From Candidatus Cryosericum terrychapinii (GTDB lineage: Bacteria > Caldisericota > Caldisericia > Cryosericales > Cryosericaceae), in assembly GCF_003570925.1 (NCBI RefSeq), contig NZ_QXIS01000006.1, positions 83,439 to 147,438 of the forward strand: a DNA stretch of 64,000 bases, in the 5' to 3' direction. A program made the translations under genes and the position numbers. Below the pieces are notes generated by a model. The model ran no database searches. It worked only from the letters and a program-made list of their open reading frames with translations, and had not been told where the DNA came from. This document shows positions 1,280-27,518 of this stretch, one piece after another. Numbering within the stretch: position 1 is the stretch's first letter; each line of letters starts with the position of its first letter.

Positions 1280-1882
1280 ATGGACACATCGGGCACACTT
1301 GCAGGCATTGTCTGCCGCGAACTGGAACCGAGGCTCTGGCCGCAGCTGGAAGCACTGTTTGGCATGCACGGAGCATGTGGCGGCTGCTGGTGCCAGTGGT
1401 GGCGCATCGCGGGAGTTGAACACTGGAAGGACGTCCAAGGCGAAGTTGCGCACTCTCGTCTCTGTCGACAGGTGGAGGAAGGGTATGCACATGGTGTTCT
1501 CGCATACGACGGAGATGAGGCCGTGGGGTGGTGTTCGTTTGAGCCGCGTGCTTCTCTGCCACGGCTGCAACGCTCACCGAGGTTCAAGGGCAGGCCTGCA
1601 GAAGGTGTCTGGTTCGTCGGATGTTTCTTCATCCAGCGTGGCTGGAGGCGCCGGGGGCTGGCGGAGGTCCTGCTGGGACATGCGATCGGCGTGATGGAGC
1701 GTGAAGGAGCTCGTGCCGTGGAGGCTGTGCCGACGGCGACGTACGGACGCCCACAGGCGGACGCGTTTCTGTTCACGGGCACGTATGGAATGTTTGAGCG
1801 GCTTGGGTTTCACACCATGATGGACGCGCGCGGCAGGACCACTGTCATGAGACGGGAATTCATTTCAGGAGTGCAGCAATGA
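1280..1882 (+). CDS. GNAT family N-acetyltransferase
   Basis: A 200-residue protein with the GNAT fold: the acetyl-CoA loop is seen in VGCFFIQRGWRRRGLAEVLL (motif A, R/Q-x-x-G-x-G/A region), followed by a helix and the C-terminal YGMFERLGF strand typical of GNATs. The N-terminal part has an unusual Cys/Trp cluster, GACGGCWCQWW, found in a subgroup of uncharacterised GNAT proteins. The substrate is unknown. An SD-like GAGGTG stands upstream of the ATG. Its stop overlaps the start of a 53-codon ORF by four bases (ATGA). Confidence 0.75.
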   Translation: MDTSGTLAGIVCRELEPRLWPQLEALFGMHGACGGCWCQWWRIAGVEHWKDVQGEVAHSRLCRQVEEGYAHGVLAYDGDEAVGWCSFEPRASLPRLQRSPRFKGRPAEGVWFVGCFFIQRGWRRRGLAEVLLGHAIGVMEREGARAVEAVPTATYGRPQADAFLFTGTYGMFERLGFHTMMDARGRTTVMRREFISGVQQ

Positions 1883-2040
1883 CCACGGCTGATATCCCGT
1901 GCATCGTTCCTAAGACACCGTTCTTCTGTTCCTGGAGTGGGCAGTGTGAGGTGGTGGGTTTGAGTAACCTTCGCAAGGGGGCGGACGTAGACAAGGTGGG
2001 CAGTCGGTCAGTGTTCTCAGAAGACCGGCTGCGAGGTTAA
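1879..2040 (+). CDS. Small ORF (53 aa), ATGA-coupled to the acetyltransferase
   Basis: The ATG at 1879-1881 overlaps the TGA of the acetyltransferase, the coupling seen repeatedly in this genome, and the frame stays open to TAA at 2038-2040, seven bases before the SD of the next gene. The product starts MTTADIPCIVPKTPFFCSWSG, has three Cys residues in the first 25 positions and no clear hydrophobic segment. I do not recognise a family. Support comes from coupling and from filling the whole gap; it could be chance. Confidence 0.35.
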   Translation: MTTADIPCIVPKTPFFCSWSGQCEVVGLSNLRKGADVDKVGSRSVFSEDRLRG

Positions 2041-2049
2041 GGAGAAGAT

Positions 2050-2778
2050 ATGACTGAACAGAACACTCGCAGGACCCGTTCCTCGATAGCGAACGTCGGC
2101 ATTCTGCTGATCATCGCCGGCATCGTCATCCTTGCACTGCAGTACGTTCATATCGACATGAACTGGCTTCCAAAGCGCTGGGCAGACATGTCGTGGCCAC
2201 TGCACATCATTATTCCCGGACTTGCGTTGTTTGTGGTGGGTCTGGTGCTGCCGGACCGGGCGGGCGAGGGTCTATCCGGGTTCGGGCTTGTGGCCGCGGC
2301 AGTGGGCACCCTCCTCTGGTATCAGGGTATCACTGGCACATGGGAAAGCTGGGCATATGCATGGGCACTCGTGGTTCCGGCCGCTGGAGGACTTGCAGGC
2401 ATCATCCATGGGACGCTGCACGCCAACTGGCGGCACGTCAGGGATGGAGTGGGAGGTCTTGCCTTCGGTCTCGTCGCCTTCGTAGTACTGGGGTATGTGT
2501 TCGAGGGCTGGCTGGGGTTCGAGGGATTTGGACTCAACCGGATTGCTGCTTGGGTTCCAGGAGTGATCCTGCTGGCAGTGGGCGTCACGGTCCTCTTTGC
2601 GGGCACCCCCGGTGAACGCAGCTCAAGACGCGCCGAGCGCGAACAGAGATGGGCAGAGCGTCGTACGACACCCCAAGGATGGACGAGCGCTCCCGTCGTG
2701 CCTCCCGAGGAGAAGAAGATGGAAACCATCACGCCTCCTGCTGAGCCGACAAAGCCCGACGACGGGCAGCCCAGCTAA
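2050..2778 (+). CDS. Multipass membrane protein of unknown function
   Basis: The 242-residue product has a short cytoplasmic N-terminus and about six transmembrane helices (roughly residues 14-34, 50-68, 76-92, 100-118, 132-152 and 160-185). It ends in a 55-residue charged, Pro-rich tail with RRAEREQR and PPEEKK stretches, probably cytoplasmic. The SD AAGGAG lies just before the ATG. The helix pairs resemble DUF5668/LiaF-type small membrane proteins, but I cannot assign a family. It may be co-transcribed with the upstream acetyltransferase and meets a convergent lipoprotein gene five bases after its stop. Confidence 0.6.
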   Translation: MTEQNTRRTRSSIANVGILLIIAGIVILALQYVHIDMNWLPKRWADMSWPLHIIIPGLALFVVGLVLPDRAGEGLSGFGLVAAAVGTLLWYQGITGTWESWAYAWALVVPAAGGLAGIIHGTLHANWRHVRDGVGGLAFGLVAFVVLGYVFEGWLGFEGFGLNRIAAWVPGVILLAVGVTVLFAGTPGERSSRRAEREQRWAERRTTPQGWTSAPVVPPEEKKMETITPPAEPTKPDDGQPS

Positions 2779-2782
2779 TGGG

Positions 2783-3214
2783 CTACTTGGGGACTGTCGC
2801 TATCTTGACGACGTGACTGGCGTGTCCCTCGCGCCAGGTTGACTCGAGGCTGTAGATATATGTGCCGGGATCGGCAGGCAGCGTGAACGTGCCGCCCCGG
2901 ATCTCGACTCGGGTCGGTTCGTGATCGTTCCAGAGATATGCGAACAGGTCGCGTGGTCGGCGGCCGTAGTCGACTGAGATGCTGGAGCCACAGGGTGCGG
3001 TGACCGCAAGGACGTCGGTGACGAACTCGTCTGGCACCGGGGCGTCAGACTGGACCGAGTGGCCAGGGGCCGACCAGCCGTAGGTACCTAGACGAACCGG
3101 CACAGGACCTGAGGTCACCGTGACAACGGGCGTTACAGGTTCGCTCAGGGTGACACAGCCGGCAAACATACAGCACATGACCACACTCAGGATCAAGGCT
3201 ATGTATCTCATCAA
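2783..3214 (-). CDS. Small lipoprotein, unknown function
   Basis: The 143-residue product has a type II signal peptide, MMRYIALILSVVMCCMFAGC, whose lipobox FAGC places the lipidated Cys at residue 20. The mature part looks like a single beta-sandwich: alternating strands and a closing GTFTLPADPGTYIYSLES segment that resembles proteinase-inhibitor/Ig-like modules. The SD AGGAGG lies upstream of the ATG. Role and partners are unknown; it is probably displayed outside the cytoplasmic membrane. Confidence 0.6.
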   Translation of the reverse strand: MMRYIALILSVVMCCMFAGCVTLSEPVTPVVTVTSGPVPVRLGTYGWSAPGHSVQSDAPVPDEFVTDVLAVTAPCGSSISVDYGRRPRDLFAYLWNDHEPTRVEIRGGTFTLPADPGTYIYSLESTWREGHASHVVKIATVPK

Positions 3215-3289
3215 TTCCTCCTGGACCGCAGCACGGCTCGCGACGGTATACTGGTAGGACGGTTGTGCGGGTCGCAGGGTTCCCGGCAG

Positions 3290-3889
3290 CTAGAAGCGTG
3301 AGGCCAGCAGGCGGGCGAGAGCCTCCAGGACGATGATCGGTCTGGGCGCCGTGCTGGTGGTAGTGGCGTTCAGCGTGTACACGATGGTGAACACGGTGTC
3401 GTTTTTGCGCACCAGGATGGCAGCGACAGCAGGATCGTCGTACCGGGCCGAGGCCTCGCCGACAATTGCCGTCCCCGTGTCATCGATGAGCCCATTGGCA
3501 GTGAGTTTGTCCCTGTACCAGGCATACGCCTGATCACGCAGCGCGTGGTCCGGATCGGGGGTGAACTGCCCACCGAGGAGCGTCAGGGAACCCCCATCAC
3601 GGAAATCGATGGAGATACCGTTCTTTGCCGTGGCCAGTTCCTTGCCCTGGCCGTTCGTGCCTTGATCAGGGAAGAACATGAAGGTCTGGTCGGCGTACCC
3701 GACGTTGACGGCTGTTCCCAGCCCCGTCTCCGTGAAGTCCTGCGGACTCAGCGTCACGCCGGGCAGCACGCCGATGGGCTCGTCCGTGGTCGTCCCGTGC
3801 AGAGCTGAGATAAGCGTGACTGCCCCCCCGCTGACGAGGGCGAGCACGATGACAATGCTGACGAATGTACGCATGCGTTTGCGGTTCAC
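3290..3889 (-). CDS. Exported or membrane-anchored protein, unknown function
   Basis: A GTG start sits behind GGAGG. The 199-residue product starts MNRKRMRTF followed by one hydrophobic helix (about residues 9-30), so it is either secreted or a single-pass anchor. The extracytoplasmic part carries alternating strands and a conserved-looking IVGEASARYDDPAVAAILVRKND segment. No known domain is recognised. A TTGCCC-N16-TATACT promoter begins just upstream, so the gene probably starts its own transcript and may be followed by the lipoprotein gene. Confidence 0.5.
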   Translation of the reverse strand: MNRKRMRTFVSIVIVLALVSGGAVTLISALHGTTTDEPIGVLPGVTLSPQDFTETGLGTAVNVGYADQTFMFFPDQGTNGQGKELATAKNGISIDFRDGGSLTLLGGQFTPDPDHALRDQAYAWYRDKLTANGLIDDTGTAIVGEASARYDDPAVAAILVRKNDTVFTIVYTLNATTTSTAPRPIIVLEALARLLASRF

Positions 3890-3913
3890 GGCTGCCTCCA
3901 GGTACTGACCATC

Positions 3914-3941
3914 AGTATAGGACAGCTCAACGCTCGGGCAA
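3914..3941 (-). promoter_or_regulatory. Promoter for the exported protein at 3290-3889
   Basis: On the minus strand the -35 box TTGCCC (3941-3936) is separated by 16 bases from the -10 box TATACT (3919-3914). The start codon lies 25 bases further on behind an SD. Box match and spacing fit the window-wide pattern. Confidence 0.5.
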
Positions 3942-3946
3942 TGCCT

Positions 3947-4642
3947 TCAGCGCGTCAGCAGATGGCGGACGAGGACGAGGAGCGCGAGGTGAGCCGGGTA
4001 GTATGCATAGAACAGTTCCGGCAGACGGCGCAGGTGCAGCCGGGGTGGCCAGAGGATGAACGGGATGCTGGCCAGCGCGTACACCTGAGCTGGCCAGAAC
4101 AGGACCCCGGCGAGCACGTGCAGGAGTCCATGACCGATGGCGAGCTGCTCTTTATGCTGAAACAGTACGAAGCTGGCAAGGCACAGCAGAACACCATAGA
4201 GACCATAGTCCGGACCCACCTCTGGAAACCAGAGTTGTATGGAAACGAGACTCAGCGGAAGGACGATCGCCCACCACCGGTGGTGATCCCATCCCCAGAT
4301 AGCCAGCAGTCCCAGCAGCAGTGTGGCAAAGATGTTGAGCGTCCACAGGCGCACGCCGAACGCGATCATGTAGATAGGCTGGGCGATGAAACCCCAGATG
4401 GCAAGCCTGCGCGCATAGCGCGCGAGGTTGCGCGTATGCAGATAGCCGACTGCAAGCTGGTAGGCGAAGAGGGGAAAAGCCACGCGCCCGATGATGCGGA
4501 GCCAGCCCACCTGTGGCAGCAGGATGGCTCCCACATGGTCGACGGTCATCGAGATGATGGCGACAAGCTTGAGGGCGTCAGACTGTTCGAGCGTGGGTTG
4601 CCCGTTTTCCAGGGAGAAAGTTCCCTCGTCATGGTTCGTCAT
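3947..4642 (-). CDS. TraX family membrane protein
   Basis: About 231 residues with eight or so transmembrane helices. The opening, SDALKLVAIISMTVDHVGAILLP, and RIIGRVAFPLFAYQLAVGYLHTRN are the hallmark motifs of the TraX family (PF05857). F-plasmid TraX acetylates pilin, but chromosomal copies like this have no conjugation genes beside them and are presumed acyltransferases of unknown substrate. I chose the ATG at 4642; a TTG two codons upstream is possible. It is divergent from the tRNA-Gln gene. Confidence 0.8.
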   Translation of the reverse strand: MTNHDEGTFSLENGQPTLEQSDALKLVAIISMTVDHVGAILLPQVGWLRIIGRVAFPLFAYQLAVGYLHTRNLARYARRLAIWGFIAQPIYMIAFGVRLWTLNIFATLLLGLLAIWGWDHHRWWAIVLPLSLVSIQLWFPEVGPDYGLYGVLLCLASFVLFQHKEQLAIGHGLLHVLAGVLFWPAQVYALASIPFILWPPRLHLRRLPELFYAYYPAHLALLVLVRHLLTR

Positions 4643-4669
4643 TGTCAACGATTCATCGCCTCGCTCTTC

Positions 4670-4697
4670 TTGACAGCCTCCGTGGCAGCACTAGAAT
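4670..4697 (+). promoter_or_regulatory. Promoter of tRNA-Gln
   Basis: TTGACA (4670-4675), 16-base spacer, TAGAAT (4692-4697). The expected transcript start is about 13 bases before the mature tRNA. This is a perfect -35 box. Confidence 0.7.
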
Positions 4698-4717
4698 ACT
4701 GCAGTAAAGCCGCGTGT

Positions 4718-4792
4718 TGGGGCGTCGTCTAATGGTAGGACACTGGCCTTTGGAGCCATGAATTGCTGGTTCGACTCCAGCCGCCTCAGCCA
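4718..4792 (+). tRNA. tRNA-Gln (anticodon TTG)
   Basis: The cloverleaf can be folded by eye: acceptor arms TGGGGCG/CGCCTCA, a D-stem of three pairs with loop TAATGGTAG, anticodon loop CTTTGGA reading TTG, and a T-arm GCTGG/CCAGC around TTCGACT. Discriminator G and an encoded CCA end the gene at 4792. The outermost anticodon-stem pair is a C-T mismatch. Being a monocistronic tRNA, it depends on the promoter directly upstream. Confidence 0.93.
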
Positions 4793-4812
4793 TCTTCTTC
4801 TGACACAGACAA

Positions 4813-4868
4813 ATGCCTCGATCCTGGGTTGACGCGGTCGAGTCAGCACAGCCTCAGGACAGAGGCAT
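4813..4868. other. Imperfect stem-loop between tRNA-Gln and the sugar kinase
   Basis: ATGCCTC (4813-4819) pairs with GAGGCAT (4862-4868), and an inner CCTG pairs with CAGG. There is no T-run on either side. It lies between the tRNA and the convergent kinase gene and may end both transcripts. Confidence 0.3.
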
Positions 4869-4899
4869 GTCCGTAGTGTAGCAATCCCGCCTGTTTTTG

Positions 4900-5898
4900 C
4901 TAGACCACCTGGCCGACGAGGACCGCATACGTGGTCGCCGCGTCGAACTTACCCATTCTTTGCAATGCCATCACGTACGCGCCGAGGACCGGGTCGAGCA
5001 GTGGCGGTCCCAGCCGTGCGAGTGGGGCAACTTCATGGGCCAGCAATGTCAGCCTGTCGATGAAGGTAGGATTGCTGCCCCCGAAGACCGAGCCTCCCAG
5101 GACGACATCGACCGCCTCATGCTCAAAGCCCATCTTGTGGACCAGCCCCGTGATTCCCTCCGCCAGAGACTCTGCCTGCAGCATGAGGATACGCCTGCAT
5201 ACTTCGTCGCCGGCCGTCGCGCCGTCGAAGACAAGTGGTACGATGGCCAGAGCCCGATGCAGCAGTTCTCCGTGTCCTACCGTGTCTTGTACGGCCTCGA
5301 GGAACAGGAGTTGCAGCGTGTCATAGTCGAGAGCACCGATCACGTCCAGTACCATCTGCTCCAGCACGGATTTCGGCCCTGTCCCGTCGTGGGAAAGAAA
5401 CGCATAGTGCAGGATGTCTCTCAGCATGTCCAGTCCGCCGCCTCGCAGGCCGCTCTCGTAGCCGAGGCCCCGAAGCGTGACCCAGGCCCCGTCGCGACTG
5501 CACGCACAGGCGTTGGCGCCCCCGCCACACACCAGGGCGATCCCCCAGCCCTTGTTGCTCCCTGCTCTGAGCATGATCCACGTATCGTTGACAAGGTCGA
5601 AGACGAGCCCCGGGAATGTGGTGGTCAGAGCTGCATCAAGTGCCTCGCGGTCCATGGGTAGGTCCATGCCGGACAGTCCGAACACGGCGCGTTCGATCTG
5701 TGCTATCGAGAGGTCCGCAGCCGTCAGGGCAGCCTGAACGGCGTCGGTGATGCCAGACATGGCAGCTTCGAGCCCCACAACCTGGTAGTTGGAGGGACCT
5801 CCCTCGCCGGATCCGACGATATGGCCGGCATCGTCACCGACGACAGCCTTCGTCCTGGTGGTCCCCCCGTCGACACCGAGATAGTACGTCACAGCCAT
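4900..5898 (-). CDS. BadF/BadG-type ATPase, N-acetylglucosamine-kinase-like sugar kinase
   Basis: A 332-residue ASKHA-fold kinase. The phosphate-1 loop is YYLGVDGGTTRTKAVV at the N-terminus, followed by GDDAGHIVGSGEGGPSNYQ typical of the BadF/BcrA/GlcNAc-kinase family (PF01869). GIALVCGGGANACACSRDG is phosphate 2 and VLGGSVFGG the adenosine motif. No Fe-S Cys ligands of the benzoyl-CoA reductase activators are seen, so a sugar kinase is the better reading. The probable reaction is ATP-dependent phosphorylation of GlcNAc or another amino sugar. The SD AAAGGAGG stands upstream of the ATG. Confidence 0.75.
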   Translation of the reverse strand: MAVTYYLGVDGGTTRTKAVVGDDAGHIVGSGEGGPSNYQVVGLEAAMSGITDAVQAALTAADLSIAQIERAVFGLSGMDLPMDREALDAALTTTFPGLVFDLVNDTWIMLRAGSNKGWGIALVCGGGANACACSRDGAWVTLRGLGYESGLRGGGLDMLRDILHYAFLSHDGTGPKSVLEQMVLDVIGALDYDTLQLLFLEAVQDTVGHGELLHRALAIVPLVFDGATAGDEVCRRILMLQAESLAEGITGLVHKMGFEHEAVDVVLGGSVFGGSNPTFIDRLTLLAHEVAPLARLGPPLLDPVLGAYVMALQRMGKFDAATTYAVLVGQVV

Positions 5899-6026
5899 GC
5901 TAGTGTTCCTCCTTTAGGACTCTCTGATTGCCTTCTCAAGTTGAAGCACTCCCGGTGACCTTTCACGTCTGATTCGTCTGTTTCTTGTTTGGTGATATCT
6001 GGAACATCCCCTCTTTCCACCTGCCA

Positions 6027-6054
6027 AGTATACCATGGTTCATCATGCTGTCTG
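6027..6054 (-). promoter_or_regulatory. Possible promoter of the sugar kinase
   Basis: Minus-strand CAGACA (6054-6049), 16-base spacer, TATACT (6032-6027), with TG two bases before the -10 (extended type). It leaves a leader of roughly 120 bases before the kinase start. The -35 match is moderate. Confidence 0.4.
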
Positions 6055-6286
6055 CATTTGGCAGAGCGCTCGTTACCGTGGCCATGCTGGGAGGAAATGT
6101 GGTCCGAACGCCGTGTAGGTTATGGAAACGGCTTGACGGCCATGAGACTCTACCACTGGTTCGACTGACAATTCGTGTCAGCTTGTCGTTCGCTTGAACG
6201 ATGGAGGAACGGACTAGTCGGCCCTTCTTGCAATTGGTCAACATCGTAGTAACGTAATTGTAGAGACAACAAAACGCGAGGGAGGC
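6055..6286. other. Intergenic stretch at the left edge of the accessory island
   Basis: No convincing gene on either strand. TTGCAA near 6219 followed after 16 bases by TAACGT is a weak promoter candidate for the island. Base composition becomes richer in A and T here. No direct repeat, integrase or tRNA fragment is seen that would mark an attachment site. Confidence 0.3.
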
Positions 6287-6292
6287 ATGTTC

Positions 6293-6676
6293 GTGACCTC
6301 ATCAATCCTGGGCGAGTGGCGGGAAAGGGCGAGTGCACTTCTGATTCACGTGTTCATGAGAGAGGACTTATACCGAAAGCAGTGGTTTTCCAAGCTTTCT
6401 CTCCACGTCGTCCGCAGGGGCGAGTTTCCATGCAACTGGAACCGGACCGTCGTCCAAAGTGCAGACGAGCTCACGAAACGGCTCCAGAAGGACTTTCGAC
6501 TGTGTCGATATCGCATCTACCTCAGGCAGAGGCACTCCCACGAGGTCAAACGGTCGAAGTTTGACCGACACTTCATGAAGCACTTCAGCCCTAATGTCCG
6601 TTTTGGCTGCTCCGCATATATCAATCTGGCTATTGGTGTGGATGGTGGCCACTATGTGTGCGGGTTCATGACATGA
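6293..6676 (+). CDS. Orphan protein (127 aa), first gene of the radical SAM operon
   Basis: GGAGG at 6281-6285 is only one base from the ATG at 6287 but seven bases from the in-frame GTG at 6293, so GTG is the more likely start. The stop TGA overlaps the next gene's ATG (ATGA, 6673-6676), which argues that the frame is real. The product is basic, rich in Arg, His and Phe (RYRIYLRQRHSHEVKRS), and ends in NVRFGCSAYINLAIGVDGGHYVCGF, a possible beta-hairpin. I do not recognise a family. The opposite-strand ORF over the same bases is rejected because of the coupling. Confidence 0.5.
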   Translation: MTSSILGEWRERASALLIHVFMREDLYRKQWFSKLSLHVVRRGEFPCNWNRTVVQSADELTKRLQKDFRLCRYRIYLRQRHSHEVKRSKFDRHFMKHFSPNVRFGCSAYINLAIGVDGGHYVCGFMT

Positions 6677-7995
6677 CAGACGTACTGCTCATCAACTCTC
6701 CACTTTTTCGCGCGAATCGAGACCCCGATTCGGACAGCAGCGTTCCCCCGATTGGACTGGGCTACATCTACACTCAGCTTGTGCTGTCAGGCTACAAGTG
6801 TGACTTCATCGACGCAGTCGTAGACAACCTGCTTCCGAATCAGATTGTTGACATCATCGACCAATCGGATGCGAAATATGTGGGTCTCAATGTCTTCAGT
6901 TCAAATCTCAATATTGTCTGTGACATCGTGAAGAATGTCGCATCCCCGAGGGCTTTTCTCTTGGGAGGTCCGGCAATTCATACGCTGATTGCTGAAATTG
7001 CTGCTTGGGATACAGACAACAGTATCTTCGTGATTACTGGTGAAGCTGAATTGATACTTCCAGAGGTCCTCAAGAATCCAATGCGGTGGGGAGAAGGTTC
7101 TGCCAACATAAGGGTCATACATGTCACTCCTGAATCGCCTTTCTACCCCTCCGATATTGACCTTCCACTTGATCGGTCGATATTTAAGAATGAACCTACT
7201 GTTAGGCCAGACTTGAATCTGATAGAGTCGCATGTCGTGGCAAGTCGAGGGTGTATATACAACTGTGCATTCTGTACGGCTGCTACATCGCTCAATCAAC
7301 ACCTAAGACCTCGCTACCGGTCCTCTGGTAGTCTGAGCAAGGAAATTGCTGACATCAAGAGAGTACAACCCAGCACCAATTGCATCAGAGTACTCGATGA
7401 TCTTTTTCTGAGAGACCAAGCTAGCATCGACCTTGCAATAGGGCTCTTTTCTGAGACGAATCTATCTTGGCGGAGCATGGCACACATCCTTACTTTTCGG
7501 GACGCTCCCTCCAGCTGGCTAGATGGCATAAGACGAAGTGGATGTCGGGAATTGTTCGTGGGTATTGAATCCGGCAGCGACAGAACTCTCACACACATAC
7601 GCAAGCCTTTCTCCGCAGAAGTGGCATATAGAACCGTGTCTCGTGTCTTGGACGCCCAGATTCCAGTTAAGTGCTACTTCATCTTGGGTTTCCCCGGAGA
7701 GACCGAATCAGAGGCAAGAGACACAGTGTCCCTGGCACATCGTATGCAAAGTTATGCTTGCAGCGTCGGCGTTCCGCTGAGAGTCAGCGCTTTTCGATTT
7801 CGGCCCTATCATGGAACGGCTCTCTACAATGAGCTTGTTCAAGAAGGTCAGACTATCAGCCAGATTACAAATCGGGTTGATAGTCTGGAGCCAGGCTCTC
7901 TCGATCCCTACGATTGCACATCAGAAGTATATGCTGTGTATAGTAAGAGTACCTTGGACGGGTATATGATGGAGATGGAGAAGATCAATGGCTGA
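6673..7995 (+). CDS. B12-binding-domain radical SAM protein
   Basis: A 440-residue enzyme when started at ATG 6673, coupled to the gene before it; an in-frame ATG at 6658 is less likely because TDVLLINSP is the usual beginning. Residues 1-150 form a cobalamin-binding-like Rossmann domain (PPIGLGYIYTQL, AFLLGGPAIH, ITGEAELILPEVL). The radical SAM core follows: RGCIYNCAFC gives C194, C198 and C201 for the 4Fe-4S cluster, then LFVGIESGSD and ILGFPGET. The architecture fits B12-dependent methylases and ring-modifying enzymes, including BchE/MiaB-like families. The substrate is unknown. Low-G+C codon use and an eight-base overlap with the next gene mark it as part of the island operon. Confidence 0.85.
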   Translation: MTDVLLINSPLFRANRDPDSDSSVPPIGLGYIYTQLVLSGYKCDFIDAVVDNLLPNQIVDIIDQSDAKYVGLNVFSSNLNIVCDIVKNVASPRAFLLGGPAIHTLIAEIAAWDTDNSIFVITGEAELILPEVLKNPMRWGEGSANIRVIHVTPESPFYPSDIDLPLDRSIFKNEPTVRPDLNLIESHVVASRGCIYNCAFCTAATSLNQHLRPRYRSSGSLSKEIADIKRVQPSTNCIRVLDDLFLRDQASIDLAIGLFSETNLSWRSMAHILTFRDAPSSWLDGIRRSGCRELFVGIESGSDRTLTHIRKPFSAEVAYRTVSRVLDAQIPVKCYFILGFPGETESEARDTVSLAHRMQSYACSVGVPLRVSAFRFRPYHGTALYNELVQEGQTISQITNRVDSLEPGSLDPYDCTSEVYAVYSKSTLDGYMMEMEKING

Positions 7996-8791
7996 CATCC
8001 AACCACAGTTGACTGACAGAAGGCCCCTGGTCTACATCGTGGGGTTGTCGGCAAAACCGCATTGTGAGCATCTCGCTCCAGAAACTCAAACGGGGCATAT
8101 TGTCGAGCAAATTGCCCAACGCCTGCCTTCTGTAAGGATACTCAAAACGAACCTTGTGAAGACTCCGCCCATTGATGAACAAGGCAGACTACGTTACCCA
8201 AATCAAAACGAAATGCAGCTGGGCTGGAACGAATTGCAGGACGAATTGTGTCGAACGGCACCAAACCTGCTGGTGACCCTTGGGCAGCAAGTCTCATCCT
8301 TCTTGCGCTTCCAAATGGGCGTGCAACCCACAAAACCGCATCTGCCTTCTGATTTCTCATGTGAGTCATATCTGCTACAATCCGCATCCTGTATTCTCTC
8401 TGTCCATCATCCATCGTTCGTATATGTGTACTGCAGAAAGGACGTTGACAACTACGTTGCAAACGTAGTTCTGTCAATATCGTCTTTAGTCTTCAAGAGC
8501 GGAAGAAATGCCGAAACATGGAGTACAAAGGCGAGCTGGAACTCACCAACACGCAGTTGCGACAGAAGTCCCTCCGCTATGCTCCACGGGCGAGTTCAGC
8601 CGCTGGACGGTCTGATCGATGATCTTCCGGCGAGTCAACGTGCTGCTGTACAGGTCCGCATAGAATGCTGTGACACGCCGAGGGACACGTGGAAAGTGGT
8701 CAAATGCAGAGGATCTGGTGTCCTTTCGGCGAGGAGTGCCCACCCATATTGCTTTGCCAACCAACTAGGGTTCCACACCCCATGCTTGTGA
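7988..8791 (+). CDS. Uracil-DNA glycosylase superfamily-like protein with unexplained C-terminal tail
   Basis: The ATG at 7988 overlaps the radical SAM stop. Residues 14-165 follow the UDG superfamily layout: YIVGLSAKPHCE (motif near the catalytic loop), LKTNLVKTPP (like TNLVKC-PP in family 4/5 enzymes), ELCRTAPNLLVTLGQQVSSFL, and a closing LSVHHPS with the conserved His. The Fe-S cysteines of family 4/5 are not evident, so activity may differ. Residues from about 168 to 267 do not look like folded family sequence and might be read-through of degraded DNA. The partner is presumably the radical SAM enzyme. Cleavage or recognition of a modified base is inference. Confidence 0.55.
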   Translation: MADIQPQLTDRRPLVYIVGLSAKPHCEHLAPETQTGHIVEQIAQRLPSVRILKTNLVKTPPIDEQGRLRYPNQNEMQLGWNELQDELCRTAPNLLVTLGQQVSSFLRFQMGVQPTKPHLPSDFSCESYLLQSASCILSVHHPSFVYVYCRKDVDNYVANVVLSISSLVFKSGRNAETWSTKASWNSPTRSCDRSPSAMLHGRVQPLDGLIDDLPASQRAAVQVRIECCDTPRDTWKVVKCRGSGVLSARSAHPYCFANQLGFHTPCL

Positions 8792-8823
8792 ATTGGCTGT
8801 CTCTCGATGAATGAAGGAGCTTA

Positions 8824-9801
8824 GTGCCAAGGATACGGACAGTTGGCTCAGTGAAGATCGAGTTAGTCACGAAGGCCAAGGAAGCAGCTTTCTGCGCCAT
8901 AAAGATCTTCAACGATCCTCTCGTGGGTTTCAAGTCCGAGGCATTCATAGTCCTCATGGTAGTTGCCTGGACCTATCTAATGCATGCTTACTACAGACAG
9001 AGCAGAGTCGACTACCGATACTACCGCCAAGGTCTTAAGCGCAAGACCTACGATCGAACAAAACACGGCGCTCAGAAACATTGGGAACTTGAGCGGTGTC
9101 TAGACGACCCGGCCAGCCCCATTGATAGGGATACTGCCAACAATCTGCGCTTCCTCATCGGGTTGCGTCACGAAATTGAGCACCAGATGACTAGATCTCT
9201 TGACAACTACCTGAGTGCAAGGTATCAAGCATGTGCCTTGAACTTCAACGAGTATCTCAAACGACTATTCGGAGACAAATACGCGCTGGACACGTACCTG
9301 ACATACAGTATTCAGTTTGCTGACCTTGCACCGACACAGGTCAGGCCCGTGGAAACGAACGAGGCTATACCCGCGAATCTGCGTTCGTACATCACTGATT
9401 TTGATGGAAGACTGTCGTATAGCGAGTATAATAGCCCGAAGTACTCTCATCGTCTGATTTTTACCAAGAGGATGGTTGGCAGGCTAGGCCAAGCAGACAA
9501 GGTGATCGAATTCATCGACCCTAATTGCGATCAGGCCAAGACCATTGAGAAGGAGTATTGGGTAAGGAAGGAAGTGGAGAAGCCCAAGTACTTGGCAACC
9601 CAAGTAGTTGCAGAAGTCAGGAACGCTGGGTTCTCCAAGTTCTGCAGGAACCCTGAGCATCTACGGATGTGGAAATCGGAGGATGCTAAGAACCCGGCGA
9701 GAGGATATGGTACGATGGTAGCTGGAACTTGGTACTGGTATGAGTCCTGGGTCAAACACTGCGTCAAACTGTGTGAGGATGCTGGTGACAAATACAAATG
9801 A
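8824..9801 (+). CDS. DUF3644 protein with HEPN-type RX4H motif
   Basis: GTG start four bases after AAGGAG. The N-terminus, LVTKAKEAAFCAIKIFNDPLVGFKSEAFIVL, followed by AWTYLMHAYY, is the DUF3644 signature (PF12358). RHEIEH at residues 115-120 fits the R-x4-H motif of HEPN ribonucleases, a fold common in toxin-antitoxin, abortive-infection and restriction-linked proteins. The C-terminal half (residues 190-325) has many aromatic residues (GTWYWYESWV) and may bind nucleic acid. It follows the UDG-like gene on the same strand after 32 bases and probably shares its mRNA. Ribonuclease activity is inferred from motif and family. Confidence 0.7.
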   Translation: MPRIRTVGSVKIELVTKAKEAAFCAIKIFNDPLVGFKSEAFIVLMVVAWTYLMHAYYRQSRVDYRYYRQGLKRKTYDRTKHGAQKHWELERCLDDPASPIDRDTANNLRFLIGLRHEIEHQMTRSLDNYLSARYQACALNFNEYLKRLFGDKYALDTYLTYSIQFADLAPTQVRPVETNEAIPANLRSYITDFDGRLSYSEYNSPKYSHRLIFTKRMVGRLGQADKVIEFIDPNCDQAKTIEKEYWVRKEVEKPKYLATQVVAEVRNAGFSKFCRNPEHLRMWKSEDAKNPARGYGTMVAGTWYWYESWVKHCVKLCEDAGDKYK

Positions 9802-10052
9802 CGATCGAGTCATTGTTCCACCGGATCGTCCAAACTGCGGGCTCACGGTGAACTCTGAGGCAAGCAGGGAGGTGTTGTGCTGAGCCGAATGGTATGCAGC
9901 GACAAACCAATGGACGAATCTCGGGTAACCAAATGCCAACAAGTTGACACACTATCGGCAAGGGATTCGAGCGTGATTAGGCGGGAGAAGACTAGGACGA
10001 ACCATGTTGTACGGATCAGTTCGGTCGTCGTTAGCAACATCAAGGAGCAACC

Positions 10053-10622
10053 ATGAATTGGATGGAGTTCATCGCAGCCATTGTCAGAGCGGTAGCATGG
10101 CCGGCTGTCGTGATGGTGGTCTTTGTTCTGCTGCGCAAGCCTCTAGCAAAGCTGATACTGCGCCTGAGTCACGTCGCAGCTGGGGGAGTTGTCTTCGACT
10201 TCGCCGAAGCAGTTGAGAAGGTTAGCAAACAAGCCAACGAGACCCCTGGTCTATTGGCTGCACCGGCTGCCCGCGTTCCGGAAGAAGACCCCCTTCTCCA
10301 GCTGGTCTCCCTATCACCTCGTTTGGCAGTAGTCGAAGCTTGGCGGCTGGTCGAATCGTCTGCGCGTCGTGCCAACGCGGCTCGGGGAACCCCGGTGGAG
10401 AAAGGCCGCCCACTAGCCGGACTTGACGAAATTCGAGTGCTTCAAAGGGACGGCGTTCTCGATAATGCGACACTAGACATGATGACCCGTCTCCGCTCGT
10501 TGCGAAATCAAGCCATCCACATGGACGAATTCTCCATCGACACGGCGTCCGCTCGTGAGTACGTTCAACTGGCCGTAGCGTTGGTTCAGCGGATTCACGA
10601 GGAGACTCCGGAGACTCCTTGA
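10053..10622 (+). CDS. Membrane-anchored HEPN-like protein
   Basis: The SD AAGGAG lies ahead of the ATG. Residues 5-28 are one transmembrane helix, so the rest is probably cytoplasmic. The C-terminal helical domain ends LRSLRNQAIHMDEFSIDTASAREYV; RNQAIH at 151-156 matches R-x4-H, and the arrangement resembles DUF4145/HEPN-like domains found in defence proteins with a single N-terminal helix. The G+C content is higher than in the four genes before it, and a gap of 251 bases without a recognisable gene separates them, so it could be a neighbour rather than a partner. Confidence 0.55.
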   Translation: MNWMEFIAAIVRAVAWPAVVMVVFVLLRKPLAKLILRLSHVAAGGVVFDFAEAVEKVSKQANETPGLLAAPAARVPEEDPLLQLVSLSPRLAVVEAWRLVESSARRANAARGTPVEKGRPLAGLDEIRVLQRDGVLDNATLDMMTRLRSLRNQAIHMDEFSIDTASAREYVQLAVALVQRIHEETPETP

Positions 10623-10751
10623 CTGCTGTAGCCTTGGCACACTTCACGGAGGAGCCATACGCACATCGGATCTCCTCTCGGGCTATGTGTCATGCCATGG
10701 GTGACATTCGGAGGACCACCGACGCGATAGGCTCGTGAAGAATGCAAAACA

Positions 10752-10808
10752 GTGACCCCCCCAGAGAGTCCTGTATAGGTGCAGGGCGCCCTCTCGGGGG
10801 GGGGTCAC
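10752..10808. terminator. Long GC-rich stem-loop between convergent genes
   Basis: GTGACCCCCCC then AGAGAG (10752-10768) pairs with CTCTC then nine G and TCAC (10791-10808), giving a stem of about 16 pairs with a 22-base loop. It sits between the end of the accessory island and the convergent deacetylase gene. There is no T-run. It could be a bidirectional terminator or a mobile-element end. Confidence 0.4.
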
Positions 10809-10819
10809 ACAGACCTGTG

Positions 10820-11560
10820 CTAGATGAATTCCGAGTCGACGCTCGTGTGGAGGTGGAGCGGCGTCAGGACCTTGTATGCTTCTGCCAGCTGCATGCCGTG
10901 GGTACTGCCCACGTCTGAGGCCTTGAGGTTCAGGTACTGGGTCGCCATTTCCAGGGTATCCGGCGTGAACTGGCTCTTGAACAATCCGAGAGCTGCCAGT
11001 CTCACCTCGTTTTCGACCGAGATGTCGACAAACTGGTTTGGCCTGCTGGTGAGGTAGAACGCGATGAAGAGGACGTCGTGAGGGGGCAGTTCGGGGAGAT
11101 ACAGGGGCAGGTTGCAGTAGATCAAACTGTCCGCCGCTGACCACCCGCAATTCAGGTGGTCCTGATGGGCCTCGTACGTCAGCCACGGGTCGGGCGCCAG
11201 GACGGCCTCCGGACGCTCCTGCCGGATGATGCGGACCATTGCTGCGGTCGTTTCGCCGCAGTGTGGCAACTCACCATCGTGGAAGGGCAGATACAGGTGC
11301 CTCGTCACCCCCATAGCCTCGCCGGCTTGCCGATCTTCCTCATGGCGGATCTCGACCAGGCGTTCTCGTGTCATCGAGACGTCTGTGCTGCCCAGGCAGC
11401 CGTCGGTCATCGTGACGAGCGTGACTTCTTTCCCTGCCTTTGCCAGCTTGAGCAGGAGGCCGCCTGCGAACCAGACCGCGTCGTCGGAGTGGGGCTGGAA
11501 CACGACATATTTCTGTGCTGAATCGATGTGTGGAACAGGAAGGAATTCGTTCCAGTTCAT
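10820..11560 (-). CDS. PIG-L family N-deacetylase
   Basis: A 246-residue protein starting at the ATG that overlaps the previous gene's stop (ATGA); an SD AGGAGG lies ten bases upstream. The zinc motif reads FQPHSDDAVWFAGG, a variant of HPDDE in which the His and both Asp remain, and the second metal-ligand segment is YEAHQDHLNCG. Family members remove acetyl groups from GlcNAc-containing molecules. As third gene of a GH4 glycosidase, GPH symporter and PIG-L operon it probably deacetylates an imported or released amino sugar; the exact substrate is inference. Confidence 0.8.
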   Translation of the reverse strand: MNWNEFLPVPHIDSAQKYVVFQPHSDDAVWFAGGLLLKLAKAGKEVTLVTMTDGCLGSTDVSMTRERLVEIRHEEDRQAGEAMGVTRHLYLPFHDGELPHCGETTAAMVRIIRQERPEAVLAPDPWLTYEAHQDHLNCGWSAADSLIYCNLPLYLPELPPHDVLFIAFYLTSRPNQFVDISVENEVRLAALGLFKSQFTPDTLEMATQYLNLKASDVGSTHGMQLAEAYKVLTPLHLHTSVDSEFI

Positions 11561-12918
11561 AGGATGATAACCTCCTGTTGAGGGATGGGCGTGTCGGCTG
11601 CCGTATTGAGCTGTGCGGCGAGGGTGCACTTCTCCTTCACACGTTCGAGCCTCTTTCCGTAGAGCGGGTAAAAGAAGACGAAGATGAGCCCCACGCCGAT
11701 CAGCGCGGCAGGAACAACGCTCACTAGGAACCTGAAGCCTATGACGGCGGTCGGTGCCATCAGCGTGGGATCAGCCACAGGCTTGTACTTCGTGATGGTC
11801 TGGACAAACGAGATCGTGCCTGCCGAGATGGCGACGCTCATGCGGATGATGAGCGCGTTGACGCCGTAGAACATGCCCTCCCTGCGTGTGTGTGTCTTGA
11901 GGTAGTCCTCGTCACAGATGTCGGCGACCATGATGTCACCTACCAGAAGAAGGGCTCCGAGGCCGATGCCTACGATGGCAAAACAGGTGATGGCCTGTGG
12001 CATCGTCCGAACCAGTCCCAGCGGAAGCAGCGTCAGACCGAACAGGATGCAGGCGATGATGGCTGTCGTGCGAACGCCTTTGCGGATGACGACCTTTGAC
12101 CAGAAGATCTGAGTGATAATGGCGACGATGAAAATGGGAGCCATGATGAGGCTGCTCTGGGAGTCGGAAATGAGCAGAACGTACTTGGCGAAGAAGGGTA
12201 TCACCTGGGGCACCAGCACGATGACCGAGTTCACGAACAGGTTGAACATGACAAACGTCAGGAACGACTTGTTCGCCAGTGTGTTCTTGATGGCAGGGCC
12301 CAGCGGCAGAGGTTCACCGGGGGCATGCAGGTTCTCCTTGGAGCCCAGCAGCGACACGAAGATGGAAATGGCGGTGATCGCTCCGAAGATGATGCCCATA
12401 CCTCTCCATCCGAGCTTGGCGACGATCAGCGGCGTCGCGGCGAGACCGGCCATCGCGCCCAGGATGCCAATTGCCTGGCGCCAGGCGTTGACGGTGCTGC
12501 GGTCGCTCGTGGTGGAGAACGTCTCGGGGTACAGGGACGTCCAGTTGATGATGACGATGGTATAGAACCCATCGTACGCGAAGATGACGGCGAGGTAGTA
12601 CCAGAACAGCGCTGACGTGGAGATGCCGGTCGGCGGGACCCAGATGAGATAGAAGGCAAGCGCAAGCGGCAGCGTTCCCAGGACGATATACGGGATGCGG
12701 CGTCCCCACCGGGTATGCGTCCGGTCGGACCAGTAGCCGAACAGTGGGTCGTTGATGCAATTCCAGATGGTATAGATGAGCATAGCGGTCGCGAACAGCT
12801 GTTGTGGAAAACCCAGCTTGTCCACGTAGAGATACAGCGCCCAGGCCGTGAATGCATTTTCCGGCAGGCCTGCCCCCATCGAACCAAAGCTGTATGCAAG
12901 CTTCTTCCAGAAGTTCAT
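11557..12918 (-). CDS. GPH-family sugar:cation symporter (MFS_2)
   Basis: A 453-residue protein with 12 hydrophobic segments. It begins KLAYSFGSMGAGLPENAF and carries NDPLFGYWSDRTHTRWGRRIPYI, the signature loop of glycoside-pentoside-hexuronide symporters related to MelB, XylP and YicJ. A second diagnostic segment, ADICDEDYLKTHTRREGMFYGV, precedes helix 10. It should import a glycoside with Na+ or H+. Its position between a GH4 glycosidase and a PIG-L deacetylase suggests that it feeds both. The final codons overlap the deacetylase start by four bases. Confidence 0.88.
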   Translation of the reverse strand: MNFWKKLAYSFGSMGAGLPENAFTAWALYLYVDKLGFPQQLFATAMLIYTIWNCINDPLFGYWSDRTHTRWGRRIPYIVLGTLPLALAFYLIWVPPTGISTSALFWYYLAVIFAYDGFYTIVIINWTSLYPETFSTTSDRSTVNAWRQAIGILGAMAGLAATPLIVAKLGWRGMGIIFGAITAISIFVSLLGSKENLHAPGEPLPLGPAIKNTLANKSFLTFVMFNLFVNSVIVLVPQVIPFFAKYVLLISDSQSSLIMAPIFIVAIITQIFWSKVVIRKGVRTTAIIACILFGLTLLPLGLVRTMPQAITCFAIVGIGLGALLLVGDIMVADICDEDYLKTHTRREGMFYGVNALIIRMSVAISAGTISFVQTITKYKPVADPTLMAPTAVIGFRFLVSVVPAALIGVGLIFVFFYPLYGKRLERVKEKCTLAAQLNTAADTPIPQQEVIIL

Positions 12919-27351: not shown

Positions 27352-27408
27352 AGGTACCTCCTCAATCTGTATGCGTGATAGATTGCGGGGCGTCGTGATA
27401 CTGCTCTG

Positions 27409-27487
27409 TCTCCCTACGCTGGCATTACCCAGATCAGGTTCAACGAGTTGAGCCGTATGACTCTCTCAGCCCTTTCGGGCACCCCAT
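27409..27487 (-). promoter_or_regulatory. TPP riboswitch (THI element)
   Basis: On the minus strand the aptamer reads GGGGTGCCC, GAAA, GGGCTGAGA, a variable stem, GAACCTGATCTGGGTAATG and CCAGCGTAGGGA: all conserved TPP motifs in order. A 6-bp hairpin CAATCT/AGATTG (27385-27363) directly precedes the SD GAGGAGG of thiT, and no T-run is seen, so control is more likely at translation than by termination. Binding of thiamine pyrophosphate should switch thiT and the EamA gene off. Confidence 0.94.
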
Positions 27488-27490
27488 AGA

Positions 27491-27518
27491 AGCATAATGC
27501 CTGATCATCCCGAGTCAA
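27491..27518 (-). promoter_or_regulatory. Promoter of the TPP riboswitch-thiT transcript
   Basis: TTGACT (27518-27513), 16-base spacer, TATGCT (27496-27491). The expected start, about seven bases on, falls on the first G residues of the aptamer. Confidence 0.55.

Follow-up and report, generated by a model that had tools for sequence, protein, structure and literature searches.

A 64,000-nucleotide stretch of the Candidatus Cryosericum terrychapinii genome (contig NZ_QXIS01000006.1, positions 83,439 to 147,438; hereafter the window) carries a gene for a cobalamin-binding radical S-adenosylmethionine (rSAM) enzyme that overlaps a gene for a protein with a uracil-DNA-glycosylase (UDG) fold. The rSAM–UDG unit is rare (one in 380–397 genomes in three groups of bacteria) yet strict, and its distribution suggests a mobile two-gene module, seen in at least six bacterial phyla and strictly linked in five or more. 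One lineage of rSAM enzymes is paired with either of two unrelated DNA-glycosylase folds. We tentatively propose, with confidence somewhat short of even, that the rSAM–glycosylase module is a candidate anti-phage system acting through an altered deoxynucleotide or base. The observations behind this proposal are the folds, the linkage, the exchange of one glycosylase fold for another, kinase and pyrophosphatase neighbors, mobility, and defense context; beyond folds and linkage, we infer how the module acts.

A Radical SAM Gene Is Strictly Linked to a UDG-Like Gene

A scan of Genome Taxonomy Database (GTDB) genomes with the window rSAM recovered 37 loci, comprising 17 close relatives (35–44% identity) and 20 distant ones. 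The close relatives are hosted by Bacteroidota, Campylobacterota, Bacillota, Cyanobacteriota, and Patescibacteria/Falkowbacteria. A UDG-like gene adjoins the rSAM gene in all 17 close loci; 16 of these genes are whole and one is partial, as the contig of locus L014 ends ∼20 codons into it. A prophage contig (L061) provides a further locus with a UDG-like gene beside the rSAM gene. Of the 18 distant B12-rSAM loci with enough flanking sequence on each side to be judged, none has a UDG-like neighbor. An earlier reading of this stretch, made from its letters and open reading frames (ORFs) and here called the sequence-only reading, had made its case depend on homologs being found together elsewhere, and for the rSAM and UDG-like genes the 17 loci bear this out.

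The two genes are encoded on the same strand and touch or nearly touch, usually with an overlap of 4–62 bp. Only in L010 and L012 do they diverge, with 164–192 bp between them. In profile searches of ∼1,300 cellular genomes from five groups, every member of the UDG clade was an rSAM-linked copy, found in 1 of 396 Bacteroidota, 1 of 397 Campylobacterota, 1 of 380 genomes of the Patescibacteria phylum, 2 of 67 in one Bacillota order, and 1 of 54 in the window's own phylum. The UDG-linked enzymes form a clade in the rSAM tree (support 100/99). In two loci (L020, 10007–11342; L022, 10037–11054) the rSAM frame is split into two ORFs, by a frameshift or a sequencing error, and the UDG and kinase frames beside it are open.

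A third gene, for a dTMP-kinase-like enzyme, extends the module in about half of the loci. A thymidylate-kinase-like gene adjoins the rSAM–UDG pair in seven loci (L016, L017, L018, L019, L020, L022, and L061), and a topology in which these kinases are one clade apart from housekeeping tmk is favored with weak support (70/92). The locus of Acetobacterium (L017) is an intact cassette of kinase, rSAM, and UDG-like genes in that order. A search of the host's 81% complete metagenome-assembled genome for a dedicated kinase outside the island gave just one ordinary tmk-like match. Where other loci have the kinase, the Falkowbacteria locus L013 has an HNH_5-like protein of 124 aa (2599–2973) that ends just 5' of the rSAM ORF.

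The Two Core Proteins

The assignment of the rSAM enzyme is supported by several lines of evidence. Pfam matches to Radical_SAM (9e-15) and B12-binding (1.5e-9) both exceed their cut-offs, and the top NCBIfam models are B12-rSAM types such as HpnJ. The protein has the features of a predicted cobalamin-dependent (class B) rSAM enzyme, namely the invariant CIYNCAFC motif (CxxxCxxC) and an N-terminal B12-binding domain, and it retains all invariant residues of the family. The best Foldseek matches to its AlphaFold2 (AF2) model (predicted local distance difference test, pLDDT, of 84) are TsrM, OxsB, AprD4, and MgmA. OxsB rearranges a deoxyadenosine nucleotide, and its presence among the fold neighbors is counted in favor of deoxynucleotide chemistry. 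The start codon at 6673 is backed by relatives and overlaps the stop codon of the preceding gene, orfA, as ATGA, and the UDG gene, with its start codon at 7988, shares 8 bp with the 3' end of the rSAM gene; both overlaps had been noted in the sequence-only reading and are as it described them.

The UDG domain of the second protein lies barely over the Pfam cut-off (2.6e-5). Its AF2 model (pLDDT 80) matches 4zbx/4zby in Foldseek, with a probability of 1.00 to type-4 UDG, UdgX, and TDG, and it keeps 16 of 16 invariant family columns. When the family profile was compared with the PDB, the type-4 UDG 4zbx was matched at 3e-17 and matches were confined to type-4 UDG, UdgX, and phage polymerase domains, including polymerase 9qhs, which was solved with a modified template. 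The UDG-like clade shares with type-4 UDG and UdgX the fold, the HPS motif, and, in most members, the spacing of the iron–sulfur (FeS) cysteines. It differs in that the GEAPG of motif 1 is replaced: nearly all of the 20 members have GLSA(K/V) or a close form and none has GEAPG. The clade keeps HPS as an invariant motif 2 together with a TN-V/RYP/E signature, and it separates with support of 100/100 from the housekeeping type-4 UDGs that its host genomes also encode. Fourteen members have the full set of four [4Fe-4S] cysteines, whereas six have lost the site (the window copy, L013 with one cysteine left, L019, L022, L060, and L062).

The window copy of the UDG-like protein is most similar to that of L060, at 38% identity. 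Used as a query, it had no matches in the 54 genomes of the phylum, in plasmids, or in the genome scan because it is divergent, whereas the rSAM query succeeded. Its conserved domain spans ∼7988–8520 and the tail beyond has no counterpart in relatives. The last 80–90 codons (8521–8791) have a G+C (GC) fraction of 0.568 compared with 0.488 in the core, and the tail likely marks a place where the frame runs on into foreign DNA or where recombination has left a joint.

One rSAM Lineage, Two Glycosylase Folds

More distant relatives of the rSAM (26–30% identity) occur on Streptomyces plasmids and on virus-like contigs or prophages, where the gene order is a ∼275-aa protein, the rSAM, a dTMP (thymidylate) kinase, and a NUDIX protein (MazG in L048), with frames that mostly overlap; L045 is an intact example of the order with NUDIX. 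The ∼275-aa protein has no Pfam name. A profile built from its alignment matches archaeal AlkA (2jhj, 4e-6) and Escherichia coli AlkA (2e-5), with GIGPWTA and the catalytic Asp aligned (VYPH(G/D)DLAVR). By these motifs, this Streptomyces partner is a predicted HhH-GPD (AlkA-type) DNA glycosylase; it is absent from the window. The AlkA-linked clade in the rSAM tree (100/100) is sister to the UDG-linked clade (joint support 100/100), and both are apart from the distant B12-rSAM enzymes.

The swap of glycosylase folds beside one rSAM lineage is the strongest sign that the product is likely a nucleobase or a deoxynucleotide. It is the sharpest clue, because it points to chemistry at the level of the base however the module works in detail. 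Two actinomycete plasmids, L056 (Streptomyces; 3871–6795) and L054, carry the same type of kinase with a different, non-B12 SPASM-like rSAM, an EEP-fold phosphatase, and MazG; a TerD-family gene is also near in L056.

Mobility, Defense Neighbors, and Phage Copies

The modules are found in mobile contexts: on plasmids, in a prophage where a terminase gene adjoins, and at a hotspot in the window's genus. In prophage L061, a cassette of kinase, rSAM, and UDG-like genes (1872–4464) lies directly before an ORF with a terminase nuclease domain (PF20441, 1.5e-42). A portal-like ORF follows further on, and it is possible that the cassette splits the terminase gene.

Neighboring genes also include known or candidate defense genes. 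In four Bacteroidota loci (L007, L008, L011, and L015), the rSAM–UDG pair is last in an operon with an XRE-M78 regulator, a PIN-like protein, and a membrane protein, and the regulator of L011 matches RmrA (1.4e-60). Kiwa genes adjoin the module in L009 (KwaA, 1.5e-76; KwaB, 2e-35), and the same KwaA–KwaB clusters are present in L010, from another phylum. Kiwa is beside the module in these two loci only, and the window island has neither KwaA nor KwaB. CapP (9.5e-56) is on the side opposite Kiwa in L009, and a relative of PDC-S11 is close by in L017.

The UDG-like gene is also found in phages. Two large phage contigs, L060 (55 kb; 7980–8402) and L062 (181 kb; 7992–8429), have a stand-alone UDG-like protein that lacks the FeS site, with no rSAM anywhere on the contig. 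A 12-kb fecal phage contig, L049 (675–1154), has a UDG-like gene broken by an in-frame TAA right after HPS, and no rSAM. Among viral contigs, UDG-type rSAM queries had no matches, the Streptomyces rSAM query recovered Streptomyces-type elements, and the UDG alignment recovered L060–L064. It is possible that the stand-alone proteins of L060 and L062 are counter-defense genes.

A Candidate System Acting through an Altered Deoxynucleotide

We suggest that the rSAM enzyme would alter a deoxynucleotide, probably of the pyrimidine or thymidine type, a substrate proposed because of the kinase partner. A dedicated or housekeeping kinase would then lift the altered nucleotide toward the triphosphate, which would enter or stall phage DNA synthesis. 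The glycosylase-fold protein would handle altered bases once they are in DNA, most likely protecting the host by excision or binding, and in loci that encode NUDIX or MazG, these would clear the altered nucleotide from the pool. An antidote role for the glycosylase-fold partner is most likely and is favored over that of an executioner, and the occurrence of the glycosylase-like part alone in phages is as an antidote model predicts. A more specific version, in which the rSAM makes a deoxynucleotide that poisons replication of invading DNA, a glycosylase of either fold, each recruited separately, clears it from host DNA, and some phages captured the glycosylase-like protein as counter-defense, is possible but on the doubtful side. 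If true, the module would join radical SAM nucleotide chemistry and base-excision defense, known only apart in viperin and Brig, in a minimal mobile unit, and would predict both a new analog of a DNA building block and a phage counter-defense protein.

Several observations weigh against this interpretation. The C-terminal IGRxQFNF motif is gone from the window rSAM, which is long-branched in the tree, its UDG-like partner lacks FeS ligands and has the odd C-terminal tail, and the window module may be a divergent, possibly decaying or relaxed member of the family. With GLSA(K/V) and not GEAPG as motif 1, base excision by the UDG-like proteins is uncertain. Neither the window nor the loci of Bacteroidota and Campylobacterota have the kinase. 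Phage contigs with the UDG-like gene only may be fragments, or their proteins may have other roles, and the defense neighbors are individual occurrences. The sample is small (∼18 UDG-type and 11 AlkA-type loci) and several of its loci are near-identical.

The partner could instead be the weapon. Brig1–3 are defensive glycosylases of the UDG superfamily that leave modified phage DNA with abasic sites, and one of them has an operon partner that exposes the base (PMC13160076). By analogy, the glycosylase-fold protein would excise modified phage bases after the rSAM had converted or trimmed a hypermodified base, as BapA does for Brig3. The UDG and AlkA folds are both suited to base excision. Attack of this kind leaves the dTMP kinase and NUDIX/MazG, which are enzymes of free nucleotides, unexplained, as well as phages with the UDG-like gene alone, and the restricted PDB matches of the family profile also speak against it. 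We consider it unlikely.

A related alternative is that the rSAM modifies bases of host DNA and the UDG-like protein reads the mark or attacks unmarked DNA, in a manner like restriction–modification. Radical SAM and UDG-fold domains are found in phage base hypermodification, the family profile reaches the polymerase with a modified template (9qhs), and an HNH-like protein is 5' of the rSAM in L013. However, no nuclease or helicase partner is conserved across loci, and rarity and a two-gene core would be unusual for restriction–modification; such self-marking is improbable.

The chemistry could also serve competition with other bacteria and not defense against phages, through a small OxsB-like cassette for a nucleoside antibiotic or specialized metabolite with self-resistance. 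Likeness in fold to OxsB, TsrM, and AprD4, all natural-product enzymes, and the location on Streptomyces plasmids are consistent with this. The loci are minimal, though, with no dedicated exporter or further tailoring genes in common, and occurrence in Patescibacteria and prophages, with Kiwa, CapP, and RmrA as neighbors, better fits conflict with mobile elements, making a metabolite cassette distinctly unlikely.

Relationship to Known Systems

Components of the module resemble those of several described systems. Viperin and prokaryotic viperins with CMPK2-type kinases pair a radical SAM enzyme with a kinase of the thymidylate-kinase family, for which the proposed logic is an antiviral nucleotide analog. 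The rSAM of the module differs in having a B12 domain and being of the HpnJ/OxsB/TsrM type, and in the addition of a DNA-glycosylase partner; the window rSAM is neither a viperin-family sequence nor, like viperin, free of a B12 domain. With OxsB of oxetanocin biosynthesis it shares the cobalamin-dependent rSAM fold, but identity is 14–17% and partner and context are different.

The PADLOC candidate PDC-M51 pairs the same two superfamilies, a B12-rSAM (A) and a dTMP-kinase-like protein (B). The matches are weak and partial (rSAM, 9e-11 and 39 bits, below HpnJ-type models; kinase, 1.6e-12) and the module is not its ortholog: the rSAM match is not full length and the window island has no kinase to complete a two-gene set. 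PDC-M51A had no match in a search of 391 genomes from one class of Bacillota in which the controls were equally silent, and no publication on PDC-M51 was found in a literature search.

Like the module, Brig1, Brig2, and Brig3 (with BapA) place a UDG-superfamily protein in a defense setting, and Brig3 has an operon partner (PMC13160076). Brig glycosylases are thought to derive from repair UDGs (PMC13160076). No rSAM or kinase partner is described for the Brig systems, and the protein of the module belongs to a clade derived from type-4 UDG with a GLSA motif 1. Neither the PDB sequence matches (to E 0.01) nor the 50 best fold matches name a Brig chain.

The sequence-only reading knew of no described system with its exact set of five genes, and our literature searches found no description of the module's combination. 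Novelty lies in the gene set, and the logic of an antiviral nucleotide, if confirmed, could place the module beside viperin as a convergent solution.

The Island and Its Other Genes

The module is located in an island between a BadF-family gene and a PIG-L gene (table 1). In four sister genomes (L071, L074, L075, and L079) these flanking genes are 4–5 bp apart, so the window carries an insert of ∼4.9 kb. At the same site, genome G037 (L080, 4291–5785) has a TIR/NDT-like gene and a homolog, with 52% identity, of the membrane HEPN gene of the window, and a small HEPN protein is the cargo in genome G024 (L081, 3735–4160). The left 230–280 bp of the window insert is common to L080 and L081. The BadF/PIG-L junction is a hotspot of variable, conflict-type cargo, with at least three different alleles in one genus.

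Table 1. Location of the island, its genes, and its borders in the window
Feature	Position	Strand	Remarks
BadF-family gene, left flank	4900–5898	-	Borders the island
Variable island, inserted	5899–10819		Between BadF-family gene and PIG-L gene
orfA, orphan basic protein, 129 aa	6287–6676	+	ATGA translational coupling to rSAM
Cobalamin-binding rSAM enzyme, core gene 1	6673–7995	+	CIYNCAFC; supported by Pfam, AF2/Foldseek, and tree
UDG-fold protein, core gene 2	7988–8791	+	VGLSAK motif 1, HHPS motif 2, FeS cysteines absent
DUF3644 HEPN protein, PADLOC candidate PDC-S19	8824–9801	+	Independent neighbor, outside the core module
HEPN protein with one transmembrane segment, membrane DUF4145-like type	10053–10622	+	Independent neighbor; RNQAIH
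PIG-L gene, right flank	10820–11629	-	Borders the island

Five co-oriented ORFs, all open, occupy 6287–10622, and the GC fraction is 0.485–0.51 at about 6.0–10.0 kb of the window compared with ∼0.60 in both flanks. This agrees with the sequence-only reading, which described five low-GC genes on one strand starting with an orphan basic protein, a B12 rSAM enzyme, and a UDG-fold protein, identities that the lack of a family for orfA and the Pfam matches of the other two uphold. orfA sits where several relatives have the dTMP-kinase gene. It has no family match, no homolog at the 17 related loci, and no convincing homolog among 54 genomes from its phylum. A possible origin as a degenerate kinase was rejected, as the resemblance is limited to a chance MFVT start, with no similarity.

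The DUF3644 protein, likewise named earlier together with its RHEIEH motif, is confirmed by Pfam (6e-53) and matches PDC-S19 at 2e-150 across residues 3–324 of 325. DUF3644 is counted as HEPN in a survey of that superfamily, which also covers DUF4145-like members in the membrane whose transmembrane helix carries "WP" (PMC3710099). RHEIEH and the RNQAIH of the fifth protein are both forms of the HEPN Rx4H motif. For the fifth protein, the call of a membrane HEPN-like protein holds in its motif, its "WP" transmembrane segment (AWPAVV), and its 52% homolog, but not in Pfam, where matches to DUF4145 and HepT are weak (DUF4145, 0.0026, under the cut-off). It matches phrog_18019 at 6.5e-14. The combination of RNQAIH and a "WP" segment fits a membrane DUF4145-type HEPN protein (PMC3710099).

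That all five genes constitute one defense system, with HEPN ribonucleases as effectors of a base-modification module, was suggested by their shared strand, low GC, and short spacings. Relatives of orfA, DUF3644, and the membrane HEPN protein are found at none of the 17 related rSAM loci (L006–L022). The hotspot alleles L080 and L081 also count against it, and the membrane HEPN gene is at the hotspot of sister genome L080 without the rSAM–UDG pair. DUF3644 is a single-gene candidate family, and the gaps between genes widen to 32 and then 251 bp past the UDG gene. A five-gene system is very improbable and largely refuted; DUF3644 and the membrane HEPN protein are separate candidate defense genes in the same hotspot, ordinary members of families that have no linkage to the rSAM–UDG module elsewhere. 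The earlier idea of a base-modification conflict system persists for the rSAM–UDG pair, for which linkage, the kinase, the AlkA swap, and defense neighbors speak, and fails for the set of five.

Elsewhere in the window, an ordinary thiamine pyrophosphate (TPP) riboswitch is encoded on the minus strand at 27394–27496 (67.9 bits, above the gathering score).

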